Positions 22,998-37,895 of a DNA stretch of 64,000 nt are shown here, one piece after another. The notes beneath the pieces are model-generated. The model saw only the letters and a program-made list of their open reading frames with translations. It had not been told where the DNA came from and did no database searches. The stretch is taken from NCBI GenBank assembly GCA_947630785.1, contig CANRIW010000003.1, forward strand, positions 1 to 64,000, given 5' to 3'. This DNA is from an uncultured Oscillospiraceae bacterium. GTDB taxonomy: Bacteria > Bacillota > Clostridia > Oscillospirales > Oscillospiraceae. A program made the translations under genes and the position numbers. Each line of letters begins with the position of its first letter. The stretch's first letter is position 1.

Positions 22998-23123
22998 GTA
23001 AGAATTTGGAGGCTGTCCTGTCCCCGGGCATTTTCCGGCATGCGGGGCAAATTGTCCCGAATGAGCGCCATCCCGCAGTTCTGCCCTGTTGTTCTGCCCA
23101 AATGAAAAAGCAAGCTAAAACAC

Positions 23124-23163
23124 GGAGATGTACCCAAGTGGTTGAAGGGTCCGCACTCGAAAT
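23124..23163 (+). repeat. Truncated second copy of tRNA-Ser(CGA) 5' half, 40-bp exact repeat of 23295-23334
   Basis: ggagatgtacccaagtggttgaagggtccgcactcgaaat identical in both; period 171 bp. Confidence 0.9.
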
Positions 23164-23294: not shown

Positions 23295-23386
23295 GGAGAT
23301 GTACCCAAGTGGTTGAAGGGTCCGCACTCGAAATGCGGTAGGCGTCTAAAAAACGCGCGAGAGTTCGAATCTCTCCATCTCCGCCA
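23295..23386 (+). tRNA. tRNA-Ser(CGA), intact
   Basis: Acceptor ggagatg/catctcc, anticodon arm ccgca-ctCGAaa-tgcgg, T-arm gagag-ttcgaat-ctctc, encoded CCA. Confidence 0.95.
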
Positions 23387-23430
23387 TAGCGCAAATGCCG
23401 GCCTGAGGGCCGGCATTTGCGCTATTTTTT
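23387..23430 (+). terminator. Terminator of tRNA-Ser(CGA)
   Basis: tagcgcaaatgccggcc-tgag-ggccggcatttgcgcta-tttttt, 17-bp arms. Confidence 0.9.
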
Positions 23431-23927: not shown

Positions 23928-24488
23928 CTATATAAAACGAATGGAATCATCAATTTGTCTGGGCACCCATGGCTCCTGCCTGAGAGCGCCGCCCCGTCTG
24001 ATAGCCATCCACCCAGCCAGCCCCTCCTTCGACACCAGATAGGCGCCGCGGTAAGCCACGCTTGCCACGGCACCTATCCGCGCCCACCGGTGCATCGTGT
24101 TCTCCGAGCACCCGCACAGCTCCGCCGCCTGCCGCACCGTCAGTGCGTCCGGCCAGCTTTCCCACGCGGCCAGGAGGGATGCCCGCAGTTTCTCTCGTTC
24201 CGAAGCGGTAAGAGGAACCCGTCCCGGTTTGCGGACGTGGGCCCCACTGGAGAACGCTCCCTTGGGCGCAGCCACCGCAGGATCTCCGGCGTCCCGACGT
24301 TCCAGGAAAGCAATCACATCCGCCAGCCGGATCTTGAATCGCCGGGTCTTTTTCCCTGAGTCCCGGCAGGGCACCACCCCGTGCTCCAGCAGCCACCGGG
24401 CCTTGCGTTTGCTGATATGGCAGATACGGTAGAACTGATCCATGGTGATGACGGCGGGATACTGCTCCCGCAGCTTTTGGTAGTTCAC
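23928..24488 (-). CDS. Protein with two HTH/excisionase-like domains
   Basis: ITMDQFYRICHISKRKARWLLEHGVVPC and ALTVRQAAELCGCSENTMHRWARIGAVASVAYRGAYLVSKEGLAGW. Confidence 0.65.
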   Translation of the reverse strand: MNYQKLREQYPAVITMDQFYRICHISKRKARWLLEHGVVPCRDSGKKTRRFKIRLADVIAFLERRDAGDPAVAAPKGAFSSGAHVRKPGRVPLTASEREKLRASLLAAWESWPDALTVRQAAELCGCSENTMHRWARIGAVASVAYRGAYLVSKEGLAGWMAIRRGGALRQEPWVPRQIDDSIRFI

Positions 24489-24489
24489 C

Positions 24490-25740
24490 TCACACCCCCA
24501 TGGTCATGCTGAAGCCGGGGGCCTCGTTCTGCTCCTCTACTTCCCCCAACTGTTCTTCTGCCTGTTCGGGCTCCGGCGGGGCGAAGGCCGCGGCGATGGC
24601 AGCGGCGGACTCCTGCTTGGAGCTGAAATCCAGGTGGGAATAGATGTCGGCAGTGGTGGAGAAGGTGGAGTGACCCAGCCAATCCTGTATTTGCTTCATG
24701 GGGACGTTCTGGCTGAGCAACAGGGTGGCGCAGCTGTGTCTGAGATCGTGGAATCGAATGTGCCTCAGCCCGTGCTGTTCCAGCAGGACCCGGAAATGGT
24801 TGGTGACGTAGTTTGGCTGGAACAGCTGCCCCAACTCGTCGGTGCAGACGTAGTCTATGTACTCCCGGCAATAGGATTTGCCAAACATGGCCCGGTACTG
24901 CGCCTGCTTCTCCCTCTGTTCTTCCAGCAGCTTTCGGGTGGCCGGGAACAGGGGCAGGGTGCGGAAGCTGGACTTGGTTTTGAGCTTGTCCTCGGTGTAA
25001 AGCCGGTGTTCGCCATTCTCGGTGAGTTCGGTGACCTTGTGGTTGATGGACACGGTCCCCCGCTGGAAATCCACGGCGCTCCAGCGGATGCCCAGCACCT
25101 CGCTCCGGCGCAGGCCGTAATAGGCCGCCAACTGGATGACCACTGCCATAGAGTCGTCCTTGGTGGCCTCGAACAGCGCCGCCAATTCGTCCTTGGTATA
25201 GTAGCTGGCCAGATACTTGCCCTTGCGGGGCCGGGCCACCCGGTCCGCGGGATTGCTGGGGATCATGTCGTTCTCCACGGCGTACTGAAGCGCCTTTCGA
25301 ACCAGGGCGTGGTAGTGGATGACGGTATTGGCGTTGCAGCCGTCGTCCAGGATGGATTGGTGCAGCTCCCGGATGTGCTTAGGCTCTACATCGCACAGCT
25401 TCAGCTTCCGGGAACGAAAAAACGGGTCCAGCCGAGCTTTGAACAGTTGCTCATAACTCTGCTTTGTGGTCCGCTCGATGGTGGTGGAGGCAATCTTCAG
25501 CCAATCCTTCAGATAGTCCGCGAACAGCGGAGACTCCTCCTTGGGCTTGGCGGGCTCTCTGAGGATGAACTCCCGCTTCAATTCCTCCAGCCTGGCCATC
25601 GCCTTACGCTTTCCACCCTTCACCGGGATGCCCAGCGCCACGGACTTCTGCCGCCGCTTGCCGTCCTCGTCGTAGTAGCTTAGGATGGCGGTAAATTTGC
25701 CCCGGCGCTCAAACAAGCTGCCGGTGACCTCCCCTTTCAT
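24490..25740 (-). CDS. Tyrosine site-specific integrase
   Basis: AAYYGLRRSEVLGIRW, FHDLRHSCATLLLSQNVPMKQIQDWLGHSTFSTTADIYSHLD (R, HxxR, H, Y). Confidence 0.95.
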   Translation of the reverse strand: MKGEVTGSLFERRGKFTAILSYYDEDGKRRQKSVALGIPVKGGKRKAMARLEELKREFILREPAKPKEESPLFADYLKDWLKIASTTIERTTKQSYEQLFKARLDPFFRSRKLKLCDVEPKHIRELHQSILDDGCNANTVIHYHALVRKALQYAVENDMIPSNPADRVARPRKGKYLASYYTKDELAALFEATKDDSMAVVIQLAAYYGLRRSEVLGIRWSAVDFQRGTVSINHKVTELTENGEHRLYTEDKLKTKSSFRTLPLFPATRKLLEEQREKQAQYRAMFGKSYCREYIDYVCTDELGQLFQPNYVTNHFRVLLEQHGLRHIRFHDLRHSCATLLLSQNVPMKQIQDWLGHSTFSTTADIYSHLDFSSKQESAAAIAAAFAPPEPEQAEEQLGEVEEQNEAPGFSMTMGV

Positions 25741-26649: not shown

Positions 26650-26734
26650 AAATGCAAAAATAGCCAGAACCGCTCTTGCGGCTCCGGCTGAAAGATGATA
26701 TAGTGATTACAGCGATTACACAGGAGGAACTGTG

Positions 26735-27439
26735 ATGGAATTGAATGATGTCTTAGCAGGCCAGCGCATCATGTGGCCTCTGTGGCAGGGCTATACAATT
26801 AAAAAACATAGAGGCGTGCAATATCTGGTTCCGGATCTGGACGCCTCTGAGCAGCCCAGGTTGATTTGGTATAACTGCGCAGAGATGCCTGGAGAGCTGG
26901 TTGCAAATGCGTTGGAACTGGGACGCCTGATCACCATAGACGACCCGTCAAAAGACTACGCCTGTACCGATTTTGCGGCCCGTTACGGCCTCCTGGGGCT
27001 TGGGGCGGATAAGGACACCGCCCCTGTCCAGCACCCCGATTTGAGGCCGTCAAGCCGCTTGGTAAACAGCAAAGGCTATGGCGAGGAATTGGAGCGCTTT
27101 CGCAACGTGTTCAAAAGCCTGTATCAGCGGTTCAGCATTATCGGCAGACCGGAGGTTCTCCCGCTTCCAAAAGGCTCCGATCTCCTGGCTTTGTCCGGAT
27201 CGATTGGCTTTCACATGACAGGAGCGACGCGCCCGCAGTTTTCCTGGGAGTTTTCCTCGCTGGAGGCGTTTCTCCATTTCGCGTACAGCGCATTGGTCAG
27301 CAGCCCGCGAAAGACACTGAAAATCTGCAAAAACTGTGAGCAAATATATTACAATATCAATCCCAAAAGCGAGTTTTGTAGTACACGGTGCAGGAATTAC
27401 TATAACGTGAAGGTGTTTAGGGAGAAAGAGAAAATCTAA
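26735..27439 (+). CDS. C-terminal zinc-finger protein (CGNR-like)
   Basis: CKNCEQIYYNINPKSEFCSTRCRNYYNVKVFREKEK. Confidence 0.6.
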   Translation: MELNDVLAGQRIMWPLWQGYTIKKHRGVQYLVPDLDASEQPRLIWYNCAEMPGELVANALELGRLITIDDPSKDYACTDFAARYGLLGLGADKDTAPVQHPDLRPSSRLVNSKGYGEELERFRNVFKSLYQRFSIIGRPEVLPLPKGSDLLALSGSIGFHMTGATRPQFSWEFSSLEAFLHFAYSALVSSPRKTLKICKNCEQIYYNINPKSEFCSTRCRNYYNVKVFREKEKI

Positions 27440-27477
27440 AGCGAAATCGCTATTATTCACAGTTGGGGGAGCAAAAG

Positions 27478-30357
27478 ATGTTCCATCAAATGATTACCAA
27501 CGCAAGAAACCAGTGGCTGGCATCTCCTGATTGCACAGTCAGGGATCTGCTCCGTTATATTGAGCGAACCGGCCAGATGCGCGACGCGCAGATCGAGGCC
27601 ATAAAAACCTATCTGTTTTTGAAGATCTGCTGTGGGTGCAGGCCCCTCTCTGCCCTGTTTGCAGAGGGCGCGTTCAACACTGCGGACATCGGAGAACTGT
27701 CCCTCCCTGACCGGGTAAAAGGGTATCTTCGGGCTGACCCCGCAGCGGCAGCGCTCCTGGAGTACGCTAACCTGAAAAACGACGAGGGTGAGCAGGTCTC
27801 CAAACGGTTGGCGGAACAGATCGCATCAGAGCCGGACAGCATCGACTATCAGAAGTTTTTTAAGGACGTTTTCTACGGCGTCTCCTATACCGACTACCTG
27901 TTCAGCCTGCCCATGGGCGCGGGAAAGACTTACCTCATGGCGGCGTTTATCTATCTTGATCTGTATTTCGCGCTGAATGAGCCGCAAAACCCTGCCTTCG
28001 CCCACAATTTCATTATCTTTGCGCCCTCTGGATTGAAGTCCTCCGTGGTTCCCAGTCTGAAGACCATCCAGAAGTTCGATCCAGCTTGGGTCATTCCGGA
28101 GCCCGCTGCGTCCCGCGTTAAGCGCATGATTTCCTTCGAGGTGCTGGATCAGGCCAAGACCGCCAATAAGTCCAACAAGACAAAGAATCCCAATGTGCAA
28201 AAAATCGCCAACCACCAGCCGCTGGACGAGCTGTTCGGTTTGGTGGCCGTGACCAACGCGGAAAAGGTCATTCTGGACCGCATCCAGGAGCGAAGCGGAC
28301 AGATCACCTTCTACGAGGAGAGTGACGACGAAAAGGACCGGCAAGCCAACGAGCTGCGCAACCTGATCGGCAAGCTGCCTGCCCTGTCCGTTTTCATCGA
28401 CGAGGTCCACCATGCGGTCAGCGACGAGATCAAACTGCGGGCCGTGGTGAATCAGTGGACGGCGAACCGCACAGTCAACTCTGTGGTGGGCTTTTCTGGC
28501 ACGCCGTACCTGGAGCGGGCGGAAAAAATCGCCGTGACGGACAGGCTGTCCGTGGCCACGGCGGAGATCACCAATATCGTCTACTACTATCCCCTTATCA
28601 GCGGCGTGGGGAACTTCCTGAAACGCCCGGTGGTGAAGATCGCAGACATAGCGGAGAGCACGCGCATCATCGAGAACGGTGTCAGGGCGTTCCTGGACAC
28701 CTATTTGGATACCGTTTATCAGGACGACACCACCGCCAAACTGGGCATCTACTGCGGCACCATTGAGAAACTGGAGGAGACGGTCTATCCCCTGGTCTCC
28801 AGGATCGCCGGGGAATACGGCCTCCCAGGGGACGCCATTCTCCGCTTCCACAAGGGCAACAAACAACACCCCCAGCCGGCGGACAGCCAAATGCAGTTCG
28901 ACAGCCTGGACAAGCCTTTTTCCAGAGTCCGCATCGTCCTGTTAGTGCAGATCGGCAAGGAGGGCTGGGACTGCCGCAGCCTCACCGGGATCATTCTCTC
29001 CCAGGAGGGGGACTGCCCCAAGAACATGGTGCTCCAAACCTCCTGCCGCTGCCTGCGTCAAGTGGACAAGGGGCAGCCGGAGACGGCGCTCATCTACCTG
29101 AACCGGGCCAACGGAGAGAAACTGGACGCCCAGCTCCAGCAGCAGCACCACATCTCCCTCAAAGAGTTCGGGGACGCCGACAATGGCAAAATCACGCTCA
29201 ACCGCTATGATCGGACGGGCTATCTCAAGCTGCCCAGGGTGGAGTTCTACCAGTTGAAGGTCAGCTATGCCACTACCATCACCAGCGAGGCGGACCCGGC
29301 GGCGGACATCCCCCAGGCCTGCGTCGGTGCAGAGGCCGCGCTGGAGAGTACGACCACCACTGATCTGACTATGAAAGCCCTGGCGACGGAGGTTCACGAC
29401 GAGGAGCAGGGCGCCGTCCCCGCCACCTTCGACGCTTGGCTGTATGGGATCGCCCGGAGCAGCATTGATACGCTGAAGCTGGAAGAACTGAATCAGCACC
29501 GTGAGGCGCTTCGGCGGGTGTTCGAGCAGATCACCTATGAGCGGGATGGCAGCCGGTATTTCAGTTCCCGGTATGACCGGGCCGCAGTGGAGGCCAACAT
29601 CCGCAAGGCGTTCTGTATCAAGCGGACCTACACCACCAAAGAGGAGCTTGTCCCGGAGGAGGCCAGTCTGCTGAACATTGCCAACTTCCAGCCGGTGATC
29701 CATGCCGATTCCGCTGACGCCTACTATCCCAAGCAGGATACGGTGGAAAACATCATCTTGGACGACCAGGGCAAGCTGAAAATGAAGCCCGATATCCAAG
29801 CGGCGATTCTGGTACTGGAGGCGGACGACAGCCCGGCCAACCGTGCGATTGCCGAAACGCTCCGTAAGCAAAATTCCTCCCACCCACAGAAGGACAAGTC
29901 TTTCCACTACCTGCCCTATCGCACGGACAGCGGGTTCGAGCGGAAGTTCATGGATGGGATGCTGCCCTTCCTGGACGATCCCGCTGTCAAGGCCATGGGG
30001 CTGGAGCTCTACTACAACGGGGACAAGGCCCTGACAGAGTTTCAGATCCGTTGCTACAAGTCCGCCGGGGGCCGGTATCGGTATATCGGGATGTACACCC
30101 CGGACTTCCTCATCCTCCAGCGCCGAGCGGGAAAGATCTACAAGGCCATCATCGTGGAGACCAAGGGCGAGCTCTACGCCAACGACCCGAAGTTCAAGGA
30201 CAAGCGGGCGTTCACAGAGTCGGAGTTCGTCCGGCAGAACAACGCGAAGTTCGGGTATGAGCGGTTCGAATACCTGTATCTGGAGGACACCATGCCGGAG
30301 GCGGAGAGATTATGGATTGTGAAAGAGAAAATTAAGAAATTCTTTGATGGAAATTAG
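27478..30357 (+). CDS. Type III restriction enzyme Res-like subunit (DEAD/DEAH helicase + PD-(D/E)XK nuclease)
   Basis: LPMGAGKTYLMAAF (Walker A), VFIDEVHHAV, GFSGTPY, C-terminal PDFLIL...KAIIVETKG. Confidence 0.88.
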   Translation: MFHQMITNARNQWLASPDCTVRDLLRYIERTGQMRDAQIEAIKTYLFLKICCGCRPLSALFAEGAFNTADIGELSLPDRVKGYLRADPAAAALLEYANLKNDEGEQVSKRLAEQIASEPDSIDYQKFFKDVFYGVSYTDYLFSLPMGAGKTYLMAAFIYLDLYFALNEPQNPAFAHNFIIFAPSGLKSSVVPSLKTIQKFDPAWVIPEPAASRVKRMISFEVLDQAKTANKSNKTKNPNVQKIANHQPLDELFGLVAVTNAEKVILDRIQERSGQITFYEESDDEKDRQANELRNLIGKLPALSVFIDEVHHAVSDEIKLRAVVNQWTANRTVNSVVGFSGTPYLERAEKIAVTDRLSVATAEITNIVYYYPLISGVGNFLKRPVVKIADIAESTRIIENGVRAFLDTYLDTVYQDDTTAKLGIYCGTIEKLEETVYPLVSRIAGEYGLPGDAILRFHKGNKQHPQPADSQMQFDSLDKPFSRVRIVLLVQIGKEGWDCRSLTGIILSQEGDCPKNMVLQTSCRCLRQVDKGQPETALIYLNRANGEKLDAQLQQQHHISLKEFGDADNGKITLNRYDRTGYLKLPRVEFYQLKVSYATTITSEADPAADIPQACVGAEAALESTTTTDLTMKALATEVHDEEQGAVPATFDAWLYGIARSSIDTLKLEELNQHREALRRVFEQITYERDGSRYFSSRYDRAAVEANIRKAFCIKRTYTTKEELVPEEASLLNIANFQPVIHADSADAYYPKQDTVENIILDDQGKLKMKPDIQAAILVLEADDSPANRAIAETLRKQNSSHPQKDKSFHYLPYRTDSGFERKFMDGMLPFLDDPAVKAMGLELYYNGDKALTEFQIRCYKSAGGRYRYIGMYTPDFLILQRRAGKIYKAIIVETKGELYANDPKFKDKRAFTESEFVRQNNAKFGYERFEYLYLEDTMPEAERLWIVKEKIKKFFDGN

Positions 30358-30412
30358 ATTTTAAACAATGGATAGGGAAGAGTGTGTTTTTCCAATCATA
30401 GGGGGTCAGATA

Positions 30413-31045
30413 ATGAGATTGCAAAGGAAAACACTATTTTGGTCTAGCTTTGTTTCGATTATTGCATTGACTATATCGTATGTAACGTATATTGCCGAGT
30501 ACGAATACATAAGCAATATCTGCGTAGGACTATTTTCAAGCGGAATCTTAATCTGTATTACTTCGGCTGTGGCTTATTATCATGAGCGAAATGCTACGAT
30601 TTTATTGCTATACAGAGGTTGCTATAAATTCATGGAATCACTTACAAATAATTTGAGGTTAGATAACATGATCGATATCTATGAATTGCGCGAAGACCTC
30701 GATATGATAATTCATGTGTATAATGAGGATGTATACTATTACATTTGTGAGTTAAAGCAAATAAATCGGCACTCTAGCATTCGTAAAATTACTGATGATA
30801 TATGGGAAAATATACGACATGTCTATTTATTTGCCGCTGATGACAGAAAGACCGTTATGAAGTGCTTGCTTGGAGACTTGGATGTAACGGAAATTAAAAA
30901 CTATCCCTGGAAGCATGTTGGCGATGAGGCCGCGGCATATTTGGAAAAGCTTCAAAAAGCATTAGACAAACTTGCCTATCAGATGAATTATTTCAATAGA
31001 AGAAAAGAAAAAAGTAGCCAGGAGGTGCCCACTGATGCCGATTAA
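30413..31045 (+). CDS. Two-TM membrane protein of unknown function located between res and mod
   Basis: MRLQRKTLFWSSFVSIIALTISYVTYIAEYEYISNICVGLFSSGILICITSAVAYYHERN...; AT-rich; 3' end overlaps mod start. Confidence 0.75.
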   Translation: MRLQRKTLFWSSFVSIIALTISYVTYIAEYEYISNICVGLFSSGILICITSAVAYYHERNATILLLYRGCYKFMESLTNNLRLDNMIDIYELREDLDMIIHVYNEDVYYYICELKQINRHSSIRKITDDIWENIRHVYLFAADDRKTVMKCLLGDLDVTEIKNYPWKHVGDEAAAYLEKLQKALDKLAYQMNYFNRRKEKSSQEVPTDAD

Positions 31046-33047
31046 ATACGTCCCTTTCATCCCTGAGCCCATCGAGGGCCAGGCGGTGCTGGCCAATTTC
31101 AACCGCATACTGAAATACAAGGGCGCAAACGATGTGTCCATGGTGCTCCAGCGGGGGATGCCGCTGTATGAGATGGAGAAACAGGAGACGGTGGGCGAGA
31201 ACCCGGACGGCAACATGGTCATCCGGGGCGAGTGCGTGTCGGCCTGCGCCTATCTGAAGGAGCAGGGCATCCAGGTGGATCTGGTCTACATCGACCCGCC
31301 CTTCGCCAGCGGCGCGGACTACGCCAAGAAGGTCTACATCCGCCGCAACCCCAAGGTGGCCGAGGCCATGGCCCAGGCGGAGCAGGAATTAGAAACCACT
31401 GAGGATTTCCGTAAGTTTGAAGAGAAAATGTACGGCGACGTGTGGGACAAAGAGAAATACCTGAACTGGATGTATGAGAACCTCATGGCCATCAAGAGTG
31501 TCATGAGCGAGAAGGCATCAATTTTTGTACATTTAGACTACCATATTGGGGCATATGTAAAAATCCTTATGGATGAAGTCTTTGGTGAAAGTAATTGTAT
31601 CAATGAAATTGTTTGGCGCAGAAAAGGGGGAACAGCCTTGGGATCGATGAATTCTCTTTCTGTGGCGTATGATACGATTTTTTGGTATTCCAAATCCTCC
31701 GACTATGTTATGAATCCTGTATTTTCGAAAGCCTCGAAAGAATATATCGAGCAGCAATTCAAATATAAAGATGCCGACGGCAGACGATACATGATTACAG
31801 TCATGCGGAGCCCTAACCCTCGTCCGAACTTAATGTACGATTACAAGGGATATCAAACACCGCCCAATGGGTGGGCAGTGACCCGCCATAAAATGGAGGA
31901 ACTTGATCGTTTGGGCTACTTGCATTTCCCTGATTCCAAAGATAAACAGGTTTATAGAAAGATTTATCTTGATGAGTATCAAGGTCAAGCAATCAATAAT
32001 TTATGGACAGACATTTCAACATTAAAAGGCAATAATAGTGAACTTACAGATTATGCGACCCAAAAACCTGAGGAACTTTTGGAAAGGATAGTATGCCTGG
32101 CATCAAATACATCCATGCTTGTGGCCGATTTTTTCGGCGGCAGCGGTGTCACCGCAGCGGTGGCCGCCAAGCTGGGCCGGCGCTTCATCCACTGTGACAT
32201 CGGCCTCAACTCCATCCAGACTACCCGCGACCGCCTGAAAGCGGACGGCGCGGAGTTTGACGTGCTGGAGATCAAGGACGGCGTCCAGCTCTACCGCAAC
32301 CCGGTGCAGACCATGGACAAAATCAAGTCGCTGATCCCCGGCCTGAAAAACGAGGACTTCCTGGACTCCTTCTGGGAGGGGGCCATATCCGACAGTAAGC
32401 TGGGCACCGTGCCCGTCTATGTGCCCAACCTGATGGACAGCTCCTCCAAGCTGCTGGACGAGGTAATGATGAACCGCATCCTCCACCAGGCCATCCCCGA
32501 CCTGGACAGCAGCGTGAAGAAGGTCATCGTCTACTACATCGACATCACCAGCGAGGAAGAGATCAAAAAGTTCATCAGGGACGATGACAGCACCGTGGTG
32601 GAGATCGAGCTACGGGATCTGAAGACCATCCTGGACGATGTGGTGGTGGGAGACTATGCCGAATTCCATGTGGAGGAGAGCAGGGCCGATCTGTTCGGCG
32701 GCTGGCGTGTGGTCGTGGACAAGTTCCTCAGCGACCGGGTCATGCAGAAGATCGACGAGTTCAACCAGAAGGCCCGGATGAACGCCACGGAGAAGCGGCC
32801 CTTCAAGCCCATTGAGATCAGCAAGACCGGGCTGGAGCTCATCGAGTATCTGAGCGTGGACTGCACTGCGGTGGAGGGCGAGTGGCACTCCGACAGCGAG
32901 ATCAAGATCGACAAGAACGGGTTCGTCATCCGGGACGGGGCGAAGACCAAGGAGTTCTGGGACGGGACGATCTGCTGTGACAAGCGGCCCCTGCGGGTGA
33001 AGGTGAGGAACATCTGCGGGGATGAAACGGTGTGGAACATGAAGTGA
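31035..33047 (+). CDS. Type III (beta-class) DNA methyltransferase Mod
   Basis: VDLVYIDPPFASGADYAKK (motif IV), VADFFGGSGVTAAVAAKLGRRFIHCDIG (motif I). Confidence 0.9.
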   Translation: MPIKYVPFIPEPIEGQAVLANFNRILKYKGANDVSMVLQRGMPLYEMEKQETVGENPDGNMVIRGECVSACAYLKEQGIQVDLVYIDPPFASGADYAKKVYIRRNPKVAEAMAQAEQELETTEDFRKFEEKMYGDVWDKEKYLNWMYENLMAIKSVMSEKASIFVHLDYHIGAYVKILMDEVFGESNCINEIVWRRKGGTALGSMNSLSVAYDTIFWYSKSSDYVMNPVFSKASKEYIEQQFKYKDADGRRYMITVMRSPNPRPNLMYDYKGYQTPPNGWAVTRHKMEELDRLGYLHFPDSKDKQVYRKIYLDEYQGQAINNLWTDISTLKGNNSELTDYATQKPEELLERIVCLASNTSMLVADFFGGSGVTAAVAAKLGRRFIHCDIGLNSIQTTRDRLKADGAEFDVLEIKDGVQLYRNPVQTMDKIKSLIPGLKNEDFLDSFWEGAISDSKLGTVPVYVPNLMDSSSKLLDEVMMNRILHQAIPDLDSSVKKVIVYYIDITSEEEIKKFIRDDDSTVVEIELRDLKTILDDVVVGDYAEFHVEESRADLFGGWRVVVDKFLSDRVMQKIDEFNQKARMNATEKRPFKPIEISKTGLELIEYLSVDCTAVEGEWHSDSEIKIDKNGFVIRDGAKTKEFWDGTICCDKRPLRVKVRNICGDETVWNMK

Positions 33048-33099
33048 ATTGTTTGCTCACCTATACATTCATAAACTATGGACGGGATTTGAAAAGTCG

Positions 33100-34098
33100 A
33101 TGATACACGCAGACATTTTTGAGGCTATTCGTGCCATTGAGCCATCCTCTCCGGTGTTAAATCTGAAAGATAAGAATGGACAGGGGCTTCTGCGGCGACA
33201 TCTCGCATACGACATGATGACAGGCCCAAATGGGAAAACCGTGATGATCCCCCGCACAGGGATGAATATGATACTCTATCGGGGGCAGCGAAACAAAGAT
33301 TGGATTTGCGATCCCGTTATATATAGGAACGCGACAGAACAATCACTTCTGATAGATCGGCTAAAAGTAATAGATTTTTCCTTGATTGCCGAACAATTTC
33401 CTCCGGTCTATTACGCAAGGCAATGGAACGTAGATGTAGATATGCTTGCCCTTGCCCAGCACTACGAAATAAAAACAGATATGCTGGATTTGACGTCGGA
33501 TATTTCTGTGGCTGCTTTTTTTGCGGTGACAAAGTATAACGACCTAAAAGGGCGGTATGAACCGATGCACAGCGGAGTTGGGTCTATCAGCACCTTCTTC
33601 TCCTTGATGGGGATGGAAACTGATGATCTAGATTTCAGAATAGTTGGACTACAGCCCTTTGCGCGACCAGGTCAACAATGTGCTTTTGGTATAAGGCTGC
33701 CCCAGGGCGCTACGCTGGAATCTCTAAATCGCGGCAATAAAATATACTTCCAACATAACCCGAAATACAACCAGCAAATAATGGATATTTTTGGAGCAGA
33801 GAAAAATAATACGCTGTTTCCGAAAGAGCGTATTGCAGATGCTGCAAAAATCGTTCGGGATAGCACAGTAGTAACGGAACGGGCAATTGACCTGTATTGT
33901 GCTGCTCATGGGGTTGAGAAGACTGATATCAAAAACAAGCTAAAAGATTGTCATATTGACATTTCACCGAAACCGATCTTCCGACTAACGAAAAAAGAAA
34001 ACGAGGCATTGAGGCGGCAGTTCCGTAGTAATCCTTTTGGCAATGTTGAAATACCAATATTTCAAAGATTGATGTATACTCCCAGCACAAAACAGTAG
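33100..34098 (+). CDS. FRG-domain protein
   Basis: ILYRGQRNKDW...LALAQHYEIKTDMLDLTSDISVAAFFAVTKY. Confidence 0.75.
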   Translation: MIHADIFEAIRAIEPSSPVLNLKDKNGQGLLRRHLAYDMMTGPNGKTVMIPRTGMNMILYRGQRNKDWICDPVIYRNATEQSLLIDRLKVIDFSLIAEQFPPVYYARQWNVDVDMLALAQHYEIKTDMLDLTSDISVAAFFAVTKYNDLKGRYEPMHSGVGSISTFFSLMGMETDDLDFRIVGLQPFARPGQQCAFGIRLPQGATLESLNRGNKIYFQHNPKYNQQIMDIFGAEKNNTLFPKERIADAAKIVRDSTVVTERAIDLYCAAHGVEKTDIKNKLKDCHIDISPKPIFRLTKKENEALRRQFRSNPFGNVEIPIFQRLMYTPSTKQ

Positions 34099-34825: not shown

Positions 34826-35800
34826 TCATTTGTGATCAAAGTACTGGTTCTGCTGCTGGCCCAGCTCATACCGGCGCCGCAGCTCCTCGTAGATCTCCGG
34901 CGGGATGGAGTCGATGAAACTCTGGTACTCCCGAAGCTCGTAGATCAGGTTCAGCCCCTCCTGGTGCTCCTGATCCCGCTCCCACTTGGCCTGCTCCGCC
35001 TCGCCTCGCAGCGCAAGTTCCTCCTTCCGCATGACCTCGATCTGCTGGCCGTAGGGTTTCAGCTTCGCCTCAAAGGCGTTGACCTTCGGGTACCACTGGG
35101 AGAGCAGCGCCAACAATTTCTCCCTCTGTTTTGATGCGTTCAGCACTCCGATGTCCTTGACCTCCCTCCGGATCTGCTTCATCTCCTGGCTCAGCCGGTG
35201 GGATTGCTTGTACAGCCAGGTGGGGATGTGCTTCCGCTTGGTGACCGCCGCCGCCTGCCCCCGCTCCAGCTCCGGGAACTCCTCGGCCATGTAGTCGTGG
35301 AATCGGTCCTGCCACTCCACCAGCCGCGCCCGGTCCCCCATCACCTCCTTGGCGGACAACCGGTTGTCTTTGGTAAGCGGCACGAAGCACAGGTGCATGT
35401 GAGGGTTGCGCTCGTCCATGTGGACCACGGCGGAAAAGATGTTCTCCGCGCCCACCTCGCTCTGCATGAACTCCAGCGCCCGCTCGAAGTAGCGGCGGGT
35501 CTTTTTCTCGGAGAGACTCGCTAAAAATTTCGGTGTGGCGGTGATGATGGTGTCGATGAACTTCACGCTGTCCTTCCTCACCCGGCACCGGGGGTTGGCC
35601 CTCTGGGCCCGCTCGATGCGGGATTGGATCTCCGCGTAATATTTCATCTGCGGCTGGACCAGATGGTAGTTCTGAGCGGAGCGTGAGGTGTCCACGTCGG
35701 GGTTGCTGGCGTACTGTTCCTTCTTCCGCTCGTGATGTTTTTCCAGGGCGCTGGCCGGGCCGCCCTTCCGTTTCTCAAATCGCAAGATGGCAAATGGCAT
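34826..35800 (-). CDS. mobV: MobV-family relaxase
   Basis: MPFAILRFEKRKGGPASALEKHHERKKEQYASNPDVDTSRSAQNYHLV; VVHMDERNPHMHLCFVPLTKDNRLSAKEVMG. Confidence 0.9.
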   Translation of the reverse strand: MPFAILRFEKRKGGPASALEKHHERKKEQYASNPDVDTSRSAQNYHLVQPQMKYYAEIQSRIERAQRANPRCRVRKDSVKFIDTIITATPKFLASLSEKKTRRYFERALEFMQSEVGAENIFSAVVHMDERNPHMHLCFVPLTKDNRLSAKEVMGDRARLVEWQDRFHDYMAEEFPELERGQAAAVTKRKHIPTWLYKQSHRLSQEMKQIRREVKDIGVLNASKQREKLLALLSQWYPKVNAFEAKLKPYGQQIEVMRKEELALRGEAEQAKWERDQEHQEGLNLIYELREYQSFIDSIPPEIYEELRRRYELGQQQNQYFDHK

Positions 35801-36239: not shown

Positions 36240-37556
36240 TCAGTTGTCCAGCAAAAAATCTGTCAGGCGGATGATCTTGATGCCGTCCTGCGTGACGGGG
36301 TTATCGCAGCTCCCCGCAACGACGATCTTCTCGTAGTTGTCCCGGATCATGCGCAGCGGTGTCAGCTCCCGTTCGCGGGTAGCGGGATCGTTCATAGACT
36401 CGGTGACCTGGATGTATCGCTTCTCCGTCGCCGTGGCGGCGATAAAGTCTACCTCCCGATTGCCCACCTTTCCGATGGCCACATCATATCCACGGCGGAG
36501 CAGTTCAAAGTACACCACGTTCTCGATCATGTGTCCCGTGTCCATATCCCGGAACCCCAGCAGGTAGTTGCGCAGGCCGACATCCACAATGTAGTACTTT
36601 CCCAGCGTCCGCAGATATTCTTTCCCCTTGACATCAAACCGCTTGATCTCGTAGAATACAAAGGACTCCAGCAGGGCCGCCACATAGGCCTGGACGGTCT
36701 GGGCTGCCGGCTTCTTGCGGTCGCCGTCTAGCAGACGCTCGTTCATCAGCGTGTTCCCGATGGTGGAGATAGAGGTGCTGTTGCCGATGTTGTCCGCCAA
36801 AAACATGATGATTTTCCGCAGCAGTTCCGGGTCGGTGAGCTGCCGCTGGCCCCGCCGCCGCTCCCGCTCTAGGATATCCCGCACCACCACGGTGGAGTAC
36901 ACCCCATCCAGCAGGGCCAGCGCCTTGTCGGTGTCCAGCCCCACGTCTGCGATGCCCGGCATCCCGCCGAATTTCAGGTATGCCTCCAGCAGTTCCTGGG
37001 GCTCATAGCTCTCGCCGTCTCCGTCATAGACGCGCCGGCGGAGCGCCCCGGCGGGGCCCCTGCTTTCCCGCACCTCATAGCCGTGGAAGTCCAAAAACTC
37101 CTTGAAGGACAACGGCAGCATCTTGATCTCCACGCTCCGCCCGGCCAGGTATGTGGCGTACTCGGAGGACAGCAGATAGGCATTGGAGCCGGTCACGTAG
37201 ATGTCGCAGTCGAAGTCCACCCGGAAGGAGTTCACGGCATCCTGCCACTGGTCCACCCGCTGGATCTCGTCCAGGAACAGGTAGGCCCGCCCAGTCTCCG
37301 GTAGCCGCTCCTTCACATGGCGGTACAGCCCCTCGGCGGTCATCCCTCGGAACTCCATGGACTCAAAATTCATCTCTATGATCTGTTCCGCCTTTACGCC
37401 GGTCTCCCGCAGATGCCGGGCCATCAGGCGGAGCAGGCTGGACTTGCCACACCGGCGGATGCCTGTGATGACCTTGACGGGCTCCGTGTCCTGGAACGCG
37501 ATCAGGCGGTTCAGGTACAGGTCCCGATTTTTCAGTTCGGACGGCTGTTTCCGCAT
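36240..37556 (-). CDS. AAA ATPase with DUF4143-type C-terminal domain
   Basis: VKVITGIRRCGKSSLLRLMARHL, YLFLDEIQRVDQW, IYVTGSNAYLLSSEYATYLAGRSVEIKMLPLSFKEFL. Confidence 0.85.
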   Translation of the reverse strand: MRKQPSELKNRDLYLNRLIAFQDTEPVKVITGIRRCGKSSLLRLMARHLRETGVKAEQIIEMNFESMEFRGMTAEGLYRHVKERLPETGRAYLFLDEIQRVDQWQDAVNSFRVDFDCDIYVTGSNAYLLSSEYATYLAGRSVEIKMLPLSFKEFLDFHGYEVRESRGPAGALRRRVYDGDGESYEPQELLEAYLKFGGMPGIADVGLDTDKALALLDGVYSTVVVRDILERERRRGQRQLTDPELLRKIIMFLADNIGNSTSISTIGNTLMNERLLDGDRKKPAAQTVQAYVAALLESFVFYEIKRFDVKGKEYLRTLGKYYIVDVGLRNYLLGFRDMDTGHMIENVVYFELLRRGYDVAIGKVGNREVDFIAATATEKRYIQVTESMNDPATRERELTPLRMIRDNYEKIVVAGSCDNPVTQDGIKIIRLTDFLLDN

Positions 37557-37665
37557 GGCGATCACCTCTGCTGACAGGATACCACACGATGAACAAAAAA
37601 TCAAGTTTTTAGAATCAAAGTTTATAAACTTTCAAAATCCAAAAGTTTTTTACATGGCTCGACAT

Positions 37666-37797
37666 TGCTAACAGAATGCTAACAAACTACCGCAAAACCC
37701 GCTTTTTCACCCTCTGTCTGAATCCGTTGAAATTGCCCGGAAAGTTCGCAAAACGCTTAGAAGTACAAGGGTTTCCGCCGTTTTCAGGTGCTAACAG
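37666..37797 (+). repeat. TGCTAACA repeats near right end, putative integrase arm sites
   Basis: tgctaacagaatgctaacaaa (37666-37686) and gttttcagg-tgctaacag (37780-37797); similar words at 23239-23270. Confidence 0.55.
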
Positions 37798-37837
37798 AGG
37801 ACGGACGAGGACGCCGGAGGACGCCCGGTTTTAAGGG

Positions 37838-37895
37838 CTCGAAATCAGGTGTACCAGCAATGATACCGTGGGTTCGAATCCCACCCGCTTCGCCA
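37838..37895 (+). pseudogene. 3' half of tRNA-Ser(CGA) split at the anticodon loop (right boundary, attR-like)
   Basis: ctcgaaatcaggtgtaccagcaatgataccgtgggttcgaatcccacccgcttcgcca. Confidence 0.85.

Follow-up and report, generated by a model that had tools for sequence, protein, structure and literature searches.

What does an operon encode in which a type III-like restriction-modification pair, Res and Mod, is interrupted by a gene for a small membrane protein: one dedicated defence system, or a two-gene core into which further genes have been placed? The operon lies in a 64,000-nucleotide stretch of DNA from an uncultured Oscillospiraceae bacterium (contig CANRIW010000003.1), here called the window. 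It consists of five co-directional open reading frames at 26,732-34,098 on the plus strand, without frameshifts. A reading made from the sequence only had described a zinc-finger protein, Res, a protein with two transmembrane segments (two-TM), Mod and an FRG-domain protein in this order, with the two-TM stop overlapping the start of mod. The five genes are present as described and the overlap is 11 nt long. The operon has the following features.

26732-27439, plus strand: Zn-finger-like protein, first gene of the operon (open reading frame; its one relative is in locus L027, there too 5' of Res)
27463-30357, plus strand: Res, constant core (PF04851 ResIII, 9e-7), a predicted SF2 helicase with a C-terminal PD-(D/E)XK-type nuclease motif
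30358-31045, plus strand: slot between res and mod, an exchangeable cassette according to the locus comparison
30413-31045, plus strand: two-TM slot gene, 210 aa from the ATG at 30413 (homologue alignment, AF2 model)
31035-31045, plus strand: ATGCCGATTAA, the start of mod, which includes a stop codon for the frame of the preceding gene (11-nt overlap; AGGAGG upstream)
31035-33047, plus strand: Mod, predicted N6/N4 DNA methyltransferase, constant core (PF01555, 1.3e-40; motifs DPPF ... FFGGSGV)
31605-32024, plus strand: target-recognition region (TRD) of Mod, residues about 190-330 (low pairwise identity; exchanged independently of the slot)
33049-34098, plus strand: FRG-domain protein in the variable position after mod (PF08867, 8.6e-16; PDC-S15, 4.9e-15)

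The alignment of Res showed a Walker A motif MGAGKT, a DEVH box and a C-terminal TPDF...ETKG nuclease motif, and the N-terminal segment weakly matched a TnsA-like nuclease domain. The AF2 model of Res had a low confidence (pLDDT 71) and its fold matches were general SF2 helicases only; a solved Res was not found by sequence. The best solved relative of Mod was the EcoP15I Mod (1.6e-16). Mod fits the EcoP15I Mod-type N6-adenine methyltransferases (PADLOC MTase_III, 4.8e-41), with a better score for the MTase_II model (1.1e-59), and its type III membership is supported by these matches. Like the type III enzyme EcoP15I, the pair combines a beta-class methyltransferase that has a central target-recognition region with a predicted SF2 Res that has a C-terminal nuclease motif. 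Unlike EcoP15I, the order is res then mod, and Res, a candidate type III endonuclease, gave no match to the PADLOC type III endonuclease models.

The start of the two-TM protein is most likely the ATG at 30413 rather than 30368, because the homologues begin there (MRLQK...) and AGGGGG is found upstream. Two transmembrane helices were predicted from the hydropathy of the homologues and from the all-helical AF2 model (pLDDT 84), whereas in the window copy just one segment exceeded a simple hydropathy cut-off. The protein matched no family over the curated cut-off and no Pfam domain, and a Foldseek search of its model against the PDB gave no match below E 0.001. For the FRG protein, the domain score was above the curated cut-off (59.1 bits versus 25 for PF08867). 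The first protein owes its name to a C-x2-C...C-x3-C motif that was recognised by eye; it had no match to Pfam, NCBIfam or PADLOC models.

A pattern scan of GTDB found 406 Res relatives. The loci studied were the best 80 of these (roughly 53-88% identical) and 4 viral contigs, and gene families were counted over the homologous loci with a Res at least 46% identical. Most loci come from metagenome bins, the genes were called by a simple ORF rule and gut Clostridia are over-represented among the taxa. Within the order, Res was found in 8 of 295 genomes, with 2 of the 8 matches short or weak. Among the best 80 of the 406 relatives, the two genes were on one strand, with res 5' of mod, in each locus for which both could be read. 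More distant Res relatives (about 25%) were observed on plasmids of Enterococcus, Yoonia, Spirosoma and Vibrio (L010-L013), with mod before res, without an insert and after a UvrD-type helicase gene; L010 has a separate PD-(D/E)XK gene.

If the Zn-finger, Res, two-TM, Mod and FRG proteins acted together as a dedicated five-gene system, as the sequence-only reading had proposed, their contiguity and common direction would be explained. No other locus holds the set: among the best 80 of the 406 relatives, phmmer found the two-TM family in 8 loci, the Zn-finger-like protein in 2 and the FRG protein in the window only, which makes a dedicated system extremely improbable. The two-TM and FRG genes are each rare at homologous loci, which speaks against these particular genes as fixed parts and leaves the principle of added effectors standing. 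The linkage that recurs is that of the slot itself.

The slot counts as resolved in the 72 loci in which both its ends, the stop of Res and the start of Mod, were located. It was occupied by one to three genes in 46 of them and empty or reduced to a short remnant in 26; in 7 more loci it was occupied and the Mod start was truncated or unrecognised. The core does not need the slot gene X, since about a third of the resolved loci are without one. A two-gene operon, res directly followed by mod, is thus sufficient as in type III restriction-modification, which agrees with the earlier statement that such systems need only mod and res. The order res-X-mod occurs in dozens of independent loci, which is beyond chance. 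Misassembly as the source of the slot diversity was rejected because isolate genomes (L026, L044, L055, L069 and L074) carry occupied slots with differing contents.

Clustering with phmmer divided the slot contents of the best 80 of the 406 relatives into at least 15 mutually unrelated families. These were PDC-S32 (10 loci), DUF2513 (9), the two-TM family of the window (8), a 68-aa protein (7, one decayed), a coiled-coil TM protein (5), PD-T7-3 (4), Abi_alpha (3), DUF5677 (2), AbiJ_NTD4 with DUF7014 (2), HEPN (1) and several singletons. The PADLOC and Pfam matches included PD-T7-3 (7.5e-124), PDC-S47/Abi_alpha (3.8e-48) and PDC-S32 (1.1e-30), as well as DUF5677 and AbiJ; the HEPN protein is that of L057 (PF05168). 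The slot families with known relatives, PD-T7-3, Abi_alpha, AbiJ, HEPN and PDC-S32, are by homology abortive-infection or defence families, and the X genes are drawn largely from these. No known defence activity was found for the 68-aa protein, DUF2513, the L069/L076 type and the proteins of L024, L051 and L089. An open reading frame in the L030 slot looked PIN-like by eye and obtained no support from Pfam or PDB searches. Slot genes also occur in series, three in L069 and L073 and two in L083 and L086, so that cassettes can accumulate.

Could the slot genes be regulators or accessory subunits of the restriction-modification enzymes, adjusting the Mod/Res ratio or the access to targets, rather than effectors? 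The small 68-aa and DUF2513 proteins could be regulators and the position between res and mod would suit a control of stoichiometry. Nevertheless, slot proteins match single-gene defence families, whether validated or candidate, which argues against this explanation, and a membrane protein or a HEPN domain would be an unlikely regulator of restriction-modification. We regard it as quite improbable.

To what extent the slot is exchanged was analysed on a tree of 86 Res proteins (FastTree, local supports only). The two-TM label changed 7 times for 7 rows (shuffled mean 6.8), PDC-S32 9 times for 10 rows and DUF2513 8 times for 9 rows, and the label 'empty' was clustered with 9 changes versus 19.7 when shuffled. 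By these counts, occupancy is a lineage trait and the slot content turns over freely. In blastn comparisons of close pairs (85-95% identical DNA), the homology stopped at the end of res and resumed at the ribosome-binding site or ATG of mod, and the genes between the breakpoints were unrelated. In L051 and L080, Res is 95% identical to 6 nt before the stop and the homology is back 18 nt before mod, with different two-TM proteins between. L014 and L074 (89% and 88%) have a two-TM and a DUF2513 gene in the slot, respectively, and have Mod including the TRD and the downstream gene in common. Likewise, L022 and L025 (90% and 91%) differ in PDC-S32 versus DUF5677 and have the same TRD and TIR gene, and L028 and L036 share the TRD with a two-TM gene versus PDC-S32 plus the 68-aa gene. 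The window itself pairs with L020 (Res 90.5%, Mod ends 89% and 94%), the slots holding two-TM and PDC-S32, respectively, and the TRDs being different. The reverse was observed in L015/L038, L031/L039 and L035/L046, where the slot gene was kept and the TRD changed.

Among 63 Mods, the median pairwise identity was 0.20 for the TRD versus 0.83 for the N-terminal part. A TRD was common (>55%) to 50 pairs of Mods, and in 6 of these 50 the slot family was also common. Because each is exchanged without the other and so few TRD-sharing pairs share the slot family, slot and DNA specificity are independent modules.

The start of mod reads ATGCCnATTAA and contains a stop in another frame, at which the preceding gene ends. 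In the window, ATGCCGATTAA is used twice, as the mod start (M-P-I-K) and in the other frame as the end of the two-TM protein (...D-A-D-stop), so that its TAA lies inside mod. The stop was present at positions 9-11 of the other frame in 53 of 72 mod genes, and it is by this built-in stop that half of the slot genes have the same 11-nt overlap (23 of 46 occupied slots); 7 more slots end in a 1-nt overlap. GGAGG was found within 20 nt 5' of mod in 45 of 72 loci. In the empty-slot loci L058, L067, L081 and L091, Res itself ends in the overlap with the mod start. The PDC-S32 copies that touch mod mostly end in ...AD (L020, L022, L055 and L062), an ending that is absent from the copies separated from mod by one gene or located elsewhere in the genome. 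The tail thus belongs to the junction and not to the slot protein.

A junction between res and mod that simply tolerates insertion would accommodate diverse contents and a slot that is often empty. The slot genes would then be hitchhikers of defence islands, which generally contain the same gene pool (TIR, OLD, HEPN and Hachiman), and would have no link to Res/Mod in function or expression. Such a passive site would hardly explain that the junctions lie within a few nucleotides, with a stop/start overlap and a Shine-Dalgarno sequence inside the upstream gene, across unrelated families, nor that every slot gene whose junction was resolved points in the direction of res and mod. We consider a passive site improbable.

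The two-TM family also occurs outside the Res/Mod loci. In 290 genomes of the order it gave 8 matches, of which 2 are in a res-mod slot. In 3 others, the N-terminal two-TM domain is common and the gene is directly 5' of a methyltransferase of another class: MmeI-like in L117 (gap of 14 nt) and L118 (47 nt), and Eco57I-type in L119 (14 nt). In L115, the two-TM relative is followed by a DUF4379 protein, which weakly matches a restriction nuclease; on plasmids, no member of the family was found. A linkage to Res alone was rejected, as relatives adjoin other methyltransferases, and, from its positions directly 5' of other methyltransferase classes, the family is tied to DNA-modification genes generally. 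A gene for a Fic-type protein (HPFQDGNGR) was observed 5' of the two-TM-MmeI pair (L117:6770-7663) and is 75% identical to the gene upstream of Res in L044; such a gene is also upstream of Res in L094. Given this identity between L117 and L044, restriction-modification systems of several types take accessory genes from a common pool.

These neighbourhoods bear on an explanation in which Res and/or Mod would hold the slot protein inactive and free it when a phage inhibits or evades restriction. A direct precedent is PrrC, which is embedded in EcoprrI, sequestered by the restriction-modification enzyme and freed by T4 Stp (PMC3874165, PMC3506569, PMC12707154). The two-TM family adjoins DNA methyltransferases of three unrelated types and one PDC-S32 relative is near a canonical mod-res pair, as a guarded toxin would have it; another PDC-S32 relative has no adjoining restriction-modification gene. 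With at least 15 unrelated slot families on one near-constant Res/Mod pair, a common docking would be demanding, and the slots have been swapped between Res/Mod DNA that is 85-95% identical. A toxin guarded by the enzymes is a serious but unlikely explanation.

In 34 of 59 loci, mod is followed within 100 nt by the start of another gene on its strand, 100 codons or longer. Ten such proteins from 9 loci were searched and matched TIR/SpbK, Ymh-type HEPN, HamA and HamB (Hachiman), an AriA/OLD-like ATPase, AbiD/Abi_2, AbiH, PDC-S60 and a GmrSD-type protein; the L026 protein had no match in the family search. DUF7014 was found in L083. A second variable position thus lies after mod, with the FRG gene of the window as one occupant. 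The FRG protein had no relative in any other locus retrieved (phmmer; best 80 of 406) and none was found in the viral contigs; order-wide there were just two partial matches, elsewhere. In L009 (PV036460.1 28603-47461; the record is annotated as a complete phage genome) and L100, Res-Mod with an empty slot is directly followed by HamA and HamB. In L020:5253-8045, an AbiH gene is apparently fused to glycosyl-hydrolase-3 sequence, probably by misassembly of the bin. On the other side of the operon, a small HTH protein of the XRE-like kind, with about 70 aa, is often found 5' of Res (L029, L032, L047, L059, L077, L084 and L138) and is possibly a controller protein; the window has the Zn-finger-like gene in its place.

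The surroundings of the window operon contain the following features.

23295-23386, plus strand: tRNA-Ser(CGA), probable integration site and left element end (ARAGORN)
23928-24488, minus strand: excisionase-type gene (TIGR01764)
24490-25740, minus strand: tyrosine integrase (PF00589, 1.7e-24)
34826-35800, minus strand: MobV relaxase (NF041497, 8e-50)
37838-37845, plus strand: CTCGAAAT, probable right attachment core, also in the tRNA-Ser and followed by a tRNA-like 3' fragment to 37895

The operon is carried on a small mobilisable element. Its limits are likely at about 23.3 and 37.85 kb, because the core CTCGAAAT is common to tRNA-Ser(CGA) and 37838-37845 and because in two genus-mates a sequence like 37600-37845 directly abuts the 3' part of tRNA-Ser. 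A perfect 18-nt inverted repeat with a T-run directly after the tRNA gene (23386-23425) forms a terminator at the element edge. The 5' half of tRNA-Ser has a second copy at 23121-23163, 98% identical over 43 nt and 171 nt upstream of the intact gene, a relic of some previous integration or tandem event. An AAA_14/DUF4143 ATPase gene (36240-37604, minus strand) is near the right element end.

Taken together, we observe a recurrent res-X-mod order with unrelated X genes at one precise position, near-isogenic exchanges and independence of the TRD. The comparisons suggest that Res/Mod is a widespread pair and that unrelated anti-virus genes, often of the self-sacrifice type, have been repeatedly swapped into the slot. 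The explanation that we favour as reasonably probable is a mobile type-III-like Res/Mod core with an exchangeable slot cassette and a second variable gene, in which the X genes are Abi-type effectors translationally coupled to mod. Res/Mod would be the first line of defence, methylating self and cutting unmodified DNA, and X would be made in step with Mod by the overlapping stop and start. X would act as a second-line effector that mostly senses infection by itself, a view taken for parsimony since 15 unrelated proteins would hardly all bind to one near-constant Res/Mod pair. In the window, the two-TM protein may act on the membrane when restriction is evaded and the FRG protein may be a further effector. 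The sequence-only reading had seen the membrane and FRG proteins as added effectors or regulators, and the view of the added genes as effectors gained ground: both variable positions repeatedly hold Abi or defence families, and two-TM relatives are found 5' of unrelated methyltransferases.

How much of this architecture was known? Like EcoprrI with PrrC, the operon has an embedded effector gene and a proposed second line when restriction fails (PMC3874165 and PMC3506569). In contrast, EcoprrI is type IC with one effector family, whereas the pair here is type-III-like and has one exact junction for 15 or more exchangeable families, of which many are membrane proteins. The ABC ATPase and the HEPN anticodon nuclease of PrrC are absent from the slot protein of the window, which is two-TM, helical and without a Pfam domain over the cut-off. 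In the surveys of Makarova et al. 2012 and Anantharaman et al. 2013, type I and III loci include toxin-like genes, toxins displace one another and a coupling of immunity and suicide is proposed (PMC3506569, PMC3710099); the parts considered do not describe a fixed res/mod slot, a stop/start junction, near-isogenic swaps or TRD independence. The BREX locus, a modification-based defence, contains diverse auxiliary or backup effectors (HEPN, PIN, OLD and GmrSD; PMC12839542, 2026), but its core is multi-gene, and a single-cassette slot with start overlap is not described in the corresponding sections. In open-access papers we found the general coupling of restriction-modification and toxins, but none that described an exactly placed, exchangeable slot in a type-III-like pair. 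Toxin-like genes in restriction-modification loci are thus known already, and the exact exchangeable res-mod slot was not found described.

Tentatively, the arrangement might be a plug-in immunity platform. A toxic effector between res and mod would be made conditionally active by the stop/start junction, that is by co-translation with Mod, and perhaps by Mod or the methylation status, and new backup defences would be acquired by recombination of a single cassette, without a new sensor or antitoxin. This wider idea is possible but doubtful. The proposal that immunity and suicide are coupled dates back more than 10 years and draws mainly on gene neighbourhoods and on PrrC. In the natural near-isogenic swaps, unrelated effectors stand in a nearly identical Res/Mod pair, and one effector family is combined with several DNA specificities, so that the control of an embedded toxin by restriction-modification is directly testable if cassettes are exchanged. 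The slot further lends itself to prospecting, by which the 68-aa protein, DUF2513 and several two-TM families become candidate new defence effectors.
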